64,000 nt of DNA from Methylacidimicrobium sp. B4 (GTDB lineage: Bacteria > Verrucomicrobiota > Verrucomicrobiia > Methylacidiphilales > Methylacidiphilaceae), in the NCBI RefSeq assembly GCF_017310545.1, contig NZ_CP066203.1, positions 1,426,001-1,490,000 on the forward strand. The letters run 5' to 3'. A program made the translations under genes and the position numbers. Under the pieces are notes generated by a model. The model was given only the letters and a program-made list of their open reading frames with translations. It was not told the origin of the DNA and made no database searches. Below are positions 22,226-26,567 of this stretch, piece by piece (the first letter of the stretch is position 1; the number at the start of each line of letters is the position of its first letter).

Positions 22226-23641
22226 ATGCCCGCCTCGCAGAGCGGGGCTCTGCCGATGATCTTTCTCCACGCAGCCATGCATCTACCTTCGAAAACCCAA
22301 GAAATCCGAGAGGCATTCCAACGCAGGAGCATCCGCTACTTCCTGCCCGCCTTCGTCGATATCCATGGCGTACCCAAGGGGAAGCTTCTGCCTCTTTCTG
22401 CCATCGAGCGATCGATCCGTCGACGCGAGCTTTTTTCCGGCCACGCGCTCGACGGCCTGGGTTCCCACCCGGAAGACGGAGAAGTAGCTGTGGCACCCGA
22501 CTGGGAGCGTGGCTTTCCTGTGCCCTGGAGACCGGAACAGGCCTGGGTCCCTTCCCATCTCACCTTCGCGAACGCTCCGTTTCCGGCCTGTACGCGGGCG
22601 GCCTTGAAGCGATCTCTGGAGAAGGCCCAGGATCGAGGCTTCCAGCTTCGGCTCGGCATTGAGTGCGAGTTCTATTTTCTTCGCCGAGGCGACTCCGGAT
22701 GTCTTCACGTTCCTCATGCGCGGGAAATCCTGACAAAAGGAAGTTATGACGCCGGAAGGCTCTTCGACGGCTCGAGCCTCATCGACTCGATCTTGGAGGC
22801 GCTCGAGCAGCTCGGCTGGGAGGTCTTCTCGGTACAACACGAAGACGGACGGTCTCAATTCGAATTGGTCTTCAGCCATTGTGAGGCGCTCGAGATGGCC
22901 GATCGGTTCGTCTTTTTCCGCTGCCTGGCTGGACGGATTGCTGCGCAGCAGGGCCTGACAGCTGTCTTCATGCCGAAACCGTTCACCGACCAGCCGGGGA
23001 ATGGCGCCCACTTCCACCTGTCGCTTGCCGACTCCCGCACCGGAGCCAACCTCTTTTCGGTGGAGCCGGGCGACGACCCGCACGGGCTGGGGCTTTCCTC
23101 CGTGGGGTACTCTTTTCTTGGCGGCCTGCTCCGGCACGGCCGGTCGCTCTGCGCAGGATTCGCCCCCACGGTCAACAGCTATAAGCGCCTGATCAAGAAG
23201 GGAGCGATGAAGTTCTATTCCTGGGCTCCCGTCTTCAACTCGCTCGGTCAAAACAATCGCACACACGCCTTCCGGGTTCCACTAGGCGGCGGCCAATGCG
23301 AAATCCGGATTCCGGATGCTTCGTGCAACCCCTATCTTGCGGCGGCCCTTGCCCTGGAAGCCGGCCTTGAAGGCGTTCGACAAAAGCTCGATCCGGGCTT
23401 ACCGGAACCGGAGAGCATCTATTCCTGGGAGGAACGCCGGGAGAACTGGCGACCGCACGAAGCCCTGCTCCCCCGGTCGCTGGGAGAGGCGCTATTGGAG
23501 TTCGCCGCTGACCCGCTCGTCGAAAGCGCATTGGGCCCGGCTCTGCGGGAAGAGTTCCTTCGGTGCAAATTCGCCGAATGGGATGAATTCAACACTGAGA
23601 TCACCCAGTGGGAGCTCAATCGCTATGCCTCCCTCTTCTAG
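22226..23641 (+). CDS. Glutamine-synthetase-family ligase (GlnT / gamma-glutamylmethylamide synthetase type)
   Basis: A 471-aa ATP-dependent gamma-glutamyl ligase. The glutamine synthetase fold is clear: FVDIHGVPKGK (beta-grasp), the metal-binding IECEFYF and GNGAHFHLSL, the ATP/ammonia region APTVNSYKRL, NNRTHAFRVP, and RIPDASCNPYLAAALALE. Its length and NNRTHAFRV pattern fit the GlnT/type-III-like subfamily, which includes gamma-glutamylmethylamide synthetase of methylamine users and glutamine synthetases proper; the substrate (ammonia or an amine) cannot be settled. The adenylylation Tyr of GlnA-I is not recognisable. ATG 22226 has GAGG upstream; ATG 22256 and 22277 are alternatives. hisC overlaps its end by 17 nt. 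Confidence 0.85.
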   Translation: MPASQSGALPMIFLHAAMHLPSKTQEIREAFQRRSIRYFLPAFVDIHGVPKGKLLPLSAIERSIRRRELFSGHALDGLGSHPEDGEVAVAPDWERGFPVPWRPEQAWVPSHLTFANAPFPACTRAALKRSLEKAQDRGFQLRLGIECEFYFLRRGDSGCLHVPHAREILTKGSYDAGRLFDGSSLIDSILEALEQLGWEVFSVQHEDGRSQFELVFSHCEALEMADRFVFFRCLAGRIAAQQGLTAVFMPKPFTDQPGNGAHFHLSLADSRTGANLFSVEPGDDPHGLGLSSVGYSFLGGLLRHGRSLCAGFAPTVNSYKRLIKKGAMKFYSWAPVFNSLGQNNRTHAFRVPLGGGQCEIRIPDASCNPYLAAALALEAGLEGVRQKLDPGLPEPESIYSWEERRENWRPHEALLPRSLGEALLEFAADPLVESALGPALREEFLRCKFAEWDEFNTEITQWELNRYASLF

Positions 23642-24809
23642 CTCGCGACGAAGAGAGCCGCGGCCCGAAAAGCCGCCGGGCCCCCTCTCTCCCAACCCTT
23701 GGATTCTCAAGCTTCTGTTTTCTTCGTACCGCGAGCTCTGTCCCCTCCAAGATCTCCTGCCCCGCCATCTCTCTCTTGTCCGACTCGACGCCAACGAAAA
23801 CCCTTTGGGGCCCTCCCCGCTGGCGCGGGAAGCGATTCGCCGCGCGGCTGAAGAGTCTCACCGCTATCCCGAGATTGCCGGTGCAGGACTCCGAGAGCTC
23901 GTCGCGGCAGAGCTTGGGGTCAGCCCGGAGCAGATTGTCTTCGGCAGCGGCTCGACGGAACTGCTCGAGCTACTCTTTCATGTTTTTCTCCGGAGCCGAC
24001 GTGACGAGGTCGTGGTACCGCGACACTCGTTCCCTTTGTATGAAATGCTCGCACAACGCTTTGGATGCCGAGCGCGTGTGGCACCGGACCGAAACTTTGT
24101 CGTAGACCTCGAGAGTCTCCATGCCGCCATCACGCCCCGTACCCGACTCATCTTTCTCGCCAACCCGAACAATCCGACGGGAACTTACGTGGACAATACA
24201 GCCCTGCTCGATTTTGCGCGGCGTCTTCCCGCGCATGTTCTCTTGGCGCTCGACGAGGCCTACGCCGACTACCTGGAGGATCCGCCGCATCTGGCCTCGG
24301 CCATTCGGGACGGAGCTCCCATCGTGGCTCTGCGGACCTTTTCCAAGCTACATGGCTTGGCGAGCCTCCGGATCGGCTACGCTCTGGCATCCCCTGCAAT
24401 GGCTCATGCCCTCCAAAAGGCCGCTCTTCCCACCAATACGAGCGGGATTGCTCAGGGAGCCGCAGCCGCCGCGCTCAAGGATCGGCGACACCAGCAAGAG
24501 TCGAAGAAGGTGGTTCAGGAGGGGCGGCTTCTTCTCGAACGGTCTTTCCAGGAATCCGGTCTCACTTGGGTGCCCTCAAGCGCCAACTTCGTGATGGTCC
24601 GCCTTCTCCACGCGGAGCAAGTCTGGAAGGCGCTGGTCCGGAGAGGCGTTCTCGTTCGCAGCCTGGATAGCTGGGGCCTGCCCGGCTGGCTGCGCGTGAC
24701 CGCAGGACGTCCGCACGAGCTCCTTCAGTTTGCCGGCGGCCTTCACGCTACGCTCCGTGAGCTTCACGGGAAACCGCCTTCTCCAGCGCAAGAGGTGGGA
24801 GTCGCCTAG
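23625..24809 (+). CDS. hisC: Histidinol-phosphate aminotransferase
   Basis: A fold-type-I PLP aminotransferase that converts imidazole-acetol phosphate and glutamate to histidinol phosphate. Motifs are RLDANENPLGPSP, the PLP-phosphate GSGSTELLELL, FLANPNNPTGT, DEAYADY, the PLP-lysine TFSKLHGLASLRIGY and the terminal WLRVTAG. The ATG at 23625 overlaps the preceding gene; the longer frame is in its interior. 394 aa is slightly long for HisC because of about 40 extra N-terminal residues. Pairing with a glutamine-synthetase-family gene links amino-group donor supply and transamination. Related enzymes act on aromatic amino acids, so the substrate is likely but not proven. Confidence 0.88.
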   Translation: MPPSSSSRRREPRPEKPPGPLSPNPWILKLLFSSYRELCPLQDLLPRHLSLVRLDANENPLGPSPLAREAIRRAAEESHRYPEIAGAGLRELVAAELGVSPEQIVFGSGSTELLELLFHVFLRSRRDEVVVPRHSFPLYEMLAQRFGCRARVAPDRNFVVDLESLHAAITPRTRLIFLANPNNPTGTYVDNTALLDFARRLPAHVLLALDEAYADYLEDPPHLASAIRDGAPIVALRTFSKLHGLASLRIGYALASPAMAHALQKAALPTNTSGIAQGAAAAALKDRRHQQESKKVVQEGRLLLERSFQESGLTWVPSSANFVMVRLLHAEQVWKALVRRGVLVRSLDSWGLPGWLRVTAGRPHELLQFAGGLHATLRELHGKPPSPAQEVGVA

Positions 24810-24818
24810 CCGGCTGGA

Positions 24819-26567
24819 ATGAGGAGAAGACATTCGGCTGCTGCTGACCTGGAGACGCTCTGGCTCTATCTCTGCCTTGGATTCGGGCTTTGTGTCCTGG
24901 CCGTTCCCCTCCTGGCGGCGGAAGAGGCCGGAGATCAGCGTCTCTTCCTTCCGGAGAAGGGAGCCGACTCTCACGGTCGAAAGCGTTGGTACGACTATGT
25001 CATGGATCCCGATCCGGGATCTTGCACCGTCTGGACCAGCCCGGATTTCGCCGAGCGCGCTCCTCGCCGGATCGCCGTACTTCCCTTCATCGACGAGGGA
25101 GCGGGGAATTATGTCCTCAACGAGATCCAGTGGCCTGGCCGGAAAGGAGAGGCCTTGGACGTGTGGCGGTGGACGCACTCTCAACGGCTGCGTCGCATGG
25201 TCCACGGCTATCTCGCCGCGAGGGAGTTCGATCTGATTCCAGTCGCCTTGGTCGATTCCATGCTCGCCGCGCACAAGATCTCGTCGGATCGTGTTCTCAA
25301 GAGCACCGAACCTCAGATCCTGGGCCGTTTCCTGGATGCGGATGCCCTAGTTTACGGCTCGGTCTCCGTCTATCGCAGCTATTACCTGCTTCTGGCGGCG
25401 GGATGGCGGGTGAAGCTGGCAATCCGGATGTTCTCGGCGATCACCGGCCGCGAGATGCTTACCGGGACCGCCACCCGCAACATCCTGGGCCTCCGCATTG
25501 CGACCAACCCCGTCGATCTTGCCATCGCCTCGATCGGCAACCTGGTCCATCTGCGTGACGTGACGCTGCGGCGCGGGGAAGACGAAGCCTGTCGCGAGCT
25601 CGTCCTCCGCGTGCCACATCCCCCGCGAACGGCGCGTGCAGAGCCTCGCGGGATTCCAAGGGCACTCCCAGTGGCGACCGCTCCCGCGCTCTCCCCGGAG
25701 GAGCGGGCGCTTCCGCCCGCCGCCTTCACCCTTCCTTTCCGGCCGAGGCCGCCCGCTCCCCATCAGAACCTTCCCCCGGAGCGCTTCTTCCTCCCCGAGC
25801 AGGAGGAATCGACCCATGGGAAAAAGAATGCCCTGGACTATCTTATCGATCTGGATCCGTCCCGATTCGAGACGGTCGCCTCCCCCAGTCTGGCAACCGA
25901 ACGCCCATTCCAACTCTCCGTCCTCCCTTTCGTCGACAACGCGACCAGAGGGCACTTTCTCCTCGATGGAGTCCCGGCAACGCCGCGTTCTCGCGAGGAG
26001 CGGGAGCGATGGCGGTGGACGACCGCCAACCGCCTTCGGCGGGGAATGGCAGCCTATCTGGCGCAACGTGACTTCTGGTTGCAGAGCCCTGCCCTCACGG
26101 ACAAGATTTTGCAGGAAATGGGCTGGCGAACTTCGGCGGACCTCTCCCGCGAGAAAGCAGAACGGGTGGCCGACTGGCTCGGCGTCGACGCACTCGTCTA
26201 CGGAGAGGTTCAGGACTCGGTAGCGATCTATGCCTTTCTCTATGCCGCTTGGCGGGTCGGGCTGAGGCTGCGGATCAGATCCGGACGGACCGGACGCTCC
26301 CTCATCGAGGTGAGCGGCCAGCGGCAGGATGCGACGCTCCTTCCCGCCTTCTTCCCACTCGATATTGCGATCTCATCGGTCATGGCCGCCGGATTCCTTC
26401 GCGACATCACGCTCAAGAGAGCGGAAGACGAGCTCTGCCGAGAGATTGCTCTCCGCATCCCCATCCCGACGCCTCCCCCATTTGCCTCCACGACCGAAAG
26501 CGTCCGGACGGCCTCTCCTCCCCCTCTGCCCGCCCCAGCGCAGAACGACCCCGCCAAGACCGACTAA
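24819..26567 (+). CDS. Secreted protein with two tandem GNA1162/DUF799-like repeats
   Basis: A 582-aa protein with an N-terminal signal segment (LCLGFGLCVLAVPLLAAEE) and no evident lipobox. Residues 43-266 and 324-548 are clearly repeats of each other: FLPE...HG(R/K)K...DY..D.DP, VLPF(I/V)D, WRWT...RLRR, DALVYG, AAGWRV/AAWRV, LDIA, LRD(V/I)TL(R)KR.EDE.CRE. Each half follows the DUF799/GNA1162 pattern of periplasmic lipoproteins (VLPF, IPVALVD, DADALVYGSV), usually a single about 220-aa domain encoded beside CsgG-like and DUF4810 lipoproteins. A Pro/Ala-rich linker (267-322) joins the halves and a Pro-rich tail ends it. It begins 9 nt after hisC. Function is unknown; an envelope role is inferred. 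Confidence 0.7.
   Translation: MRRRHSAAADLETLWLYLCLGFGLCVLAVPLLAAEEAGDQRLFLPEKGADSHGRKRWYDYVMDPDPGSCTVWTSPDFAERAPRRIAVLPFIDEGAGNYVLNEIQWPGRKGEALDVWRWTHSQRLRRMVHGYLAAREFDLIPVALVDSMLAAHKISSDRVLKSTEPQILGRFLDADALVYGSVSVYRSYYLLLAAGWRVKLAIRMFSAITGREMLTGTATRNILGLRIATNPVDLAIASIGNLVHLRDVTLRRGEDEACRELVLRVPHPPRTARAEPRGIPRALPVATAPALSPEERALPPAAFTLPFRPRPPAPHQNLPPERFFLPEQEESTHGKKNALDYLIDLDPSRFETVASPSLATERPFQLSVLPFVDNATRGHFLLDGVPATPRSREERERWRWTTANRLRRGMAAYLAQRDFWLQSPALTDKILQEMGWRTSADLSREKAERVADWLGVDALVYGEVQDSVAIYAFLYAAWRVGLRLRIRSGRTGRSLIEVSGQRQDATLLPAFFPLDIAISSVMAAGFLRDITLKRAEDELCREIALRIPIPTPPPFASTTESVRTASPPPLPAPAQNDPAKTD

Follow-up and report, generated by a model that had tools for sequence, protein, structure and literature searches.

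An old, lineage-specific tandem fusion of two GNA1162-like domains in an exported protein of Methylacidimicrobium sp. B4

Methylacidimicrobium sp. B4 is an acid-loving methane consumer. One gene in the window (the whole 64-kb stretch of DNA that was analysed) appeared from its sequence to encode an exported protein in which a GNA1162-like envelope domain, formerly DUF799, occurs twice. This raises the questions of whether the repeat is a true duplication within that family, how it arose, and what such a fused protein might do. GNA1162-like lipoproteins are usually single-domain proteins with a lipobox cysteine, encoded beside CsgG and DUF4810 genes, whereas the protein studied here has two domains, lacks a lipobox as judged by eye, and is encoded among other neighbours. 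The structure of GNA1162, an antigen of the meningococcus, has been solved while its function is not known; a role in transport or translocation was proposed from structural comparison with TolB and LptE (PMC6497663). Among the papers found, none establishes a function for a GNA1162 protein.

The open reading frame, henceforth referred to as gene A, begins with the ATG at 24819 and its stop codon ends at 26567, exactly as first annotated. It has a single evident start because an in-frame TAG lies just upstream at 24807-24809. The features of the gene and its upstream neighbours are collected in Table 1.

Table 1 Features of gene A and its upstream neighbourhood (positions are those of the window).
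Feature	Position	Strand	Basis
Gene A, exported tandem GNA1162-like protein, 582 aa	24819..26567	+	ORF; PF05643 matched twice, 50 bits, E=3.3e-13
Signal peptide region, residues 1-37, without lipobox, plausible SPI site VPLLAA/EE	24819..24929	+	By eye
N-terminal GNA1162-like domain, residues 38-266	24930..25616	+	Half-half alignment, PF05643, dN/dS 0.08-0.16
Linker, 52 residues, Pro/Ala/Arg-rich, 14 Pro	25617..25772	+	Sequence composition
C-terminal GNA1162-like domain, residues 319-549	25773..26465	+	Alignment, PF05643, structure model, dN/dS 0.09-0.12
C-terminal tail, Pro-rich, plus stop codon	26466..26567	+	Sequence composition
Glutamine-synthetase-family gene, upstream, in conserved neighbourhood	22226..23641	+	Synteny
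Aminotransferase class I/II gene (HisC-like), 9 bp upstream of gene A	23718..24809	+	Synteny

The first-pass annotation had described a tandem duplication with repeats at residues 43-266 and 324-548, and self-comparison of the protein confirmed it. The two halves (residues 38-266 and 319-549) align significantly from end to end with 39% identity over 228 aa and one 1-residue gap (140 bits, E=9e-46). Chance likeness was ruled out by shuffling: over 1000 randomisations of the C-half residue order no score exceeded 24.3 bits, against 139 bits for the real pair. The duplicated unit spans ~230 residues, and the part recognised by Pfam is shorter, covering roughly profile positions 37-130 of 185.

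Assignment to the GNA1162/DUF799 family (PF05643) also held. In addition to the two matches in the whole protein, the C half alone scored 28.4 bits, above the curated cut-off of 25.9 bits, and the N half alone scored 25.3 bits (E=1.3e-5), slightly under it. No match for the protein was found in NCBIfam. A profile of the halves searched against the PDB gave meningococcal GNA1162 (4hrv) as its sole meaningful match (E=7.7e-9). An AlphaFold model of the C half, with an overall pLDDT of 52 and values of ~60-85 for residues 41-150 apart from a dip at 61-80, returned the same structure as best match both in Foldseek (E=1.2e-8, TMt 0.70, for this model of pLDDT 52) and in VIA-align (Z 12.1, 142 residues, rmsd 3.3 A). 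Gene A thus resembles the GNA1162-like lipoproteins in family HMM, fold and best PDB match, and the structure search yielded the GNA1162 fold rather than another one. A full-length model, built with five close orthologs, was of low confidence (pLDDT 32, pTM 0.22) and was set aside.

Structural matches of the C-half model below 4hrv were PelC (Z 10.5), FlgT (9.6), LpoB (8.6), TolB (8.4) and CsgG (7.5), together with HpaA and an LPHT-ring chain. On these computations, family and fold are those of GNA1162, which belongs with CsgG, PelC, LpoB and TolB-N to a broader set of alpha/beta domains associated with the outer membrane. PelC (5t10, 5t0z, 9h80) may share its fold with the predicted C half, at Z 9.5-10.5 and ranking below 4hrv, and no sequence-level match between PelC and the gene A protein was found. 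CsgG (PF03783) has a related fold, yet gives no family match to the protein; the gene A ortholog of the second genus described below scores 18.5 bits against PF03783, under the cut-off of 20.8. A pore-forming segment was not identified in the gene A protein.

The LpoB and TolB matches, together with the extended Pro-rich linker and tail, bear on one alternative: that the protein is a periplasmic regulator of the LpoB/TolB-N kind, acting on peptidoglycan synthesis or in a Tol-Pal type system and reaching between membranes through those Pro-rich segments. This is considered quite improbable, as GNA1162 ranks well above LpoB and TolB, LpoB (PF13036) has no match in the gene A protein or anywhere in the genome, and the gene has been lost in one congener.

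Export without an evident lipobox, as initially proposed, was borne out by inspection: the N-terminus is hydrophobic and followed by a plausible SPI site. Cys19 and Cys25 lie within the hydrophobic stretch in non-lipobox contexts (LYL-C and FGL-C), and no lipobox was seen by eye in the gene A protein or its orthologs. The window also contains a gene that, going by its sequence, is lspA-like (signal peptidase II); the unlipidated state of the gene A protein is therefore not due to an absent lipidation pathway. An abundant lipoprotein of Methylacidiphilum fumariolicum (PMC10260701) was considered as a possible gene A product and rejected, being 139 aa long.

The tandem gene was found at the same site in five other Methylacidimicrobium genomes, in one of them as a disrupted copy. 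This conserved site, close to lspA-dnaN-dnaA, is flanked by the glutamine synthetase-HisC pair on one side and by a convergent two-component system on the other. In each of five genomes from a second, sister genus, probably Methylacidiphilum, two proteins of tandem architecture are encoded, one orthologous to A (46%) and the other, B, paralogous to it (about 40%). B is a single 650-aa ORF (e.g. L027:4713-6665), and the possibility that its halves are separate genes was accordingly rejected. It shares with A an architecture from the same duplication and differs from A in having an N-terminal Cys (..GCSG), a longer linker, Ser or Ala in place of a Cys pair, and a HlyD-type neighbour.

In a tree of the single domains, every N half falls in one clade and every C half in a second (support 98/96), with A and B represented in each; a long-branch warning touches joins inside the N clade and not the N/C split. 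The tree therefore indicates one duplication-fusion older than the A/B split. After that split, B may have been lost in Methylacidimicrobium or, alternatively, acquired by transfer in the second genus. No further tandem GNA1162 protein was detected in 387 Verrucomicrobiota genomes searched with PF05643 and the half profile, nor in 188 genomes drawn from the class searched with the half profile; other Verrucomicrobiota PF05643 members that were seen have one match per protein. Gene A is thus a real, old, lineage-specific tandem fusion inside a known family without established function. The suggestion that it represents a derived form is supported by this single old duplication, by its occurrence, in the genomes searched, in a single bacterial family, and by the pairing of an unlipidated A with a putatively lipidated B.

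Within that bacterial family, the tandem gene was not found in one genome (G028). Across the two genera it is intact with two exceptions. No copy was found in one genome, whose completeness is 83%, and in the Methylacidimicrobium genome G021 the ortholog (L029:6257-9954), interrupted by a DDE transposase gene and with its frame broken at another point as well, is a pseudogene. The presence of the transposase gene between the two parts excluded assembly fragmentation as the cause of the split. Gene A is therefore dispensable in that genome. Between species, the N half gave dN/dS values of 0.08-0.16 and the C half values of 0.09-0.12, with dS near 1. Values of about 0.1 in both halves show that each is under purifying selection and so matters, even in a gene that can be lost. 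They also weigh, along with the intact copies in the remaining genomes of two genera, against the view that the protein is a paralog peculiar to the lineage, nearly or wholly functionless today and kept by chance. Such retention would agree with the disrupted copy in G021 and with the gene not being found in G028, and is regarded as very improbable.

The neighbours of gene A are the glutamine-synthetase-family gene, the aminotransferase gene and the two-component system. No terminator-like site was found between the aminotransferase gene and gene A, and the two are probably co-transcribed. The glutamine-synthetase-family and aminotransferase genes (22226-24809) form a conserved pair ahead of a gene for an envelope protein.

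CsgG-like partners were absent from the locus, as first observed, and a search of the 2.37-Mb genome for CsgG (PF03783), LpoB-like and DUF4810 genes elsewhere gave no family match. The usual cluster does occur elsewhere in the phylum, in L037, where CsgG (PF03783) is accompanied by DUF4810, by a small lipoprotein and by a GNA1162 lipoprotein with one domain. In the sister genus, an exported TPR gene follows A and a HlyD-type adaptor (membrane-fusion) gene directly follows B (L027:3686-6665), each in 5/5 genomes. The neighbourhoods of A differ between both genera, and the ortholog of the TPR gene in Methylacidimicrobium sp. B4 is located elsewhere and not by gene A. The TPR and HlyD-type neighbours thus suggest a link between gene A and envelope transport. 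It was hypothesised at the outset that the product is self-sufficient. The absence of CsgG and DUF4810 from the genome fits this proposal, and other partners, such as TPR or HlyD-type proteins as in the sister genus, are possible.

The favoured reading, held with moderate confidence, is that the gene A product is a Sec-exported, soluble periplasmic covalent pseudo-dimer that serves as an accessory or assembly factor of the envelope. Its two copies of the GNA1162 fold would reach the periplasm through Sec and be soluble there. On this view the ancestral domain functioned in a dimer or as part of a ring, and its duplication would have produced a covalent pseudo-dimer whose two faces have diverged and can no longer replace each other. 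The product may assist in the assembly or gating of a complex for transport or export close to the outer membrane.

In a rival reading, the protein belongs to the secretion components that form rings in the outer membrane, as PelC and CsgG do; one chain would then stand for two adjacent subunits and the ring would need half as many chains. Second among the structural matches is PelC, a single-domain lipoprotein whose dodecameric ring is part of the Pel exopolysaccharide exporter, with FlgT, the LPHT-ring chain and CsgG below it, and the TPR and HlyD-type genes adjoining A and B in the sister genus could be read in the same way. A common fold alone, however, shows no function; the genome holds no CsgG family match, and A has no lipid anchor, unlike PelC and CsgG. 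A ring component is possible and, on balance, unlikely.

B proteins have a short hydrophobic N-terminal stretch and a conserved Cys (LFGCSG, CVGCSG, GFGCSG) in a loose lipobox fit. In the accessory-factor reading, the lipid anchor would have been either lost in A or gained in B. Cys258 and Cys540 (codons 25590-25592 and 26436-26438) occupy equivalent positions in the two halves and are kept in all A proteins of two genera, with Ser or Ala in B. In A, partner binding may stand in for the anchor, possibly aided by this cysteine pair. The A/B pattern, taken from sequence, would suggest a disulfide that replaces the lipid anchor. A fused form stabilised as a covalent pseudo-dimer by the Cys258/Cys540 pair in place of lipid anchoring is doubtful and distinctly unlikely. 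If it were true, a lipoprotein module would have become a soluble factor of the periplasm that needs no partner and is adapted to acidic surroundings.

A natural tandem fusion that two genera maintain in the absence of its customary partners CsgG and DUF4810 reveals which surfaces are retained once both domains are joined in one chain. Comparing the diverged halves with each other, and anchored B with unanchored A, offers a way to test what the functional unit of the GNA1162 family is. Elsewhere in the Verrucomicrobiota, another genome encodes a single-domain GNA1162-like lipoprotein (L038:184-1287) with an apparent C-terminal PDZ-like segment, as judged by eye.
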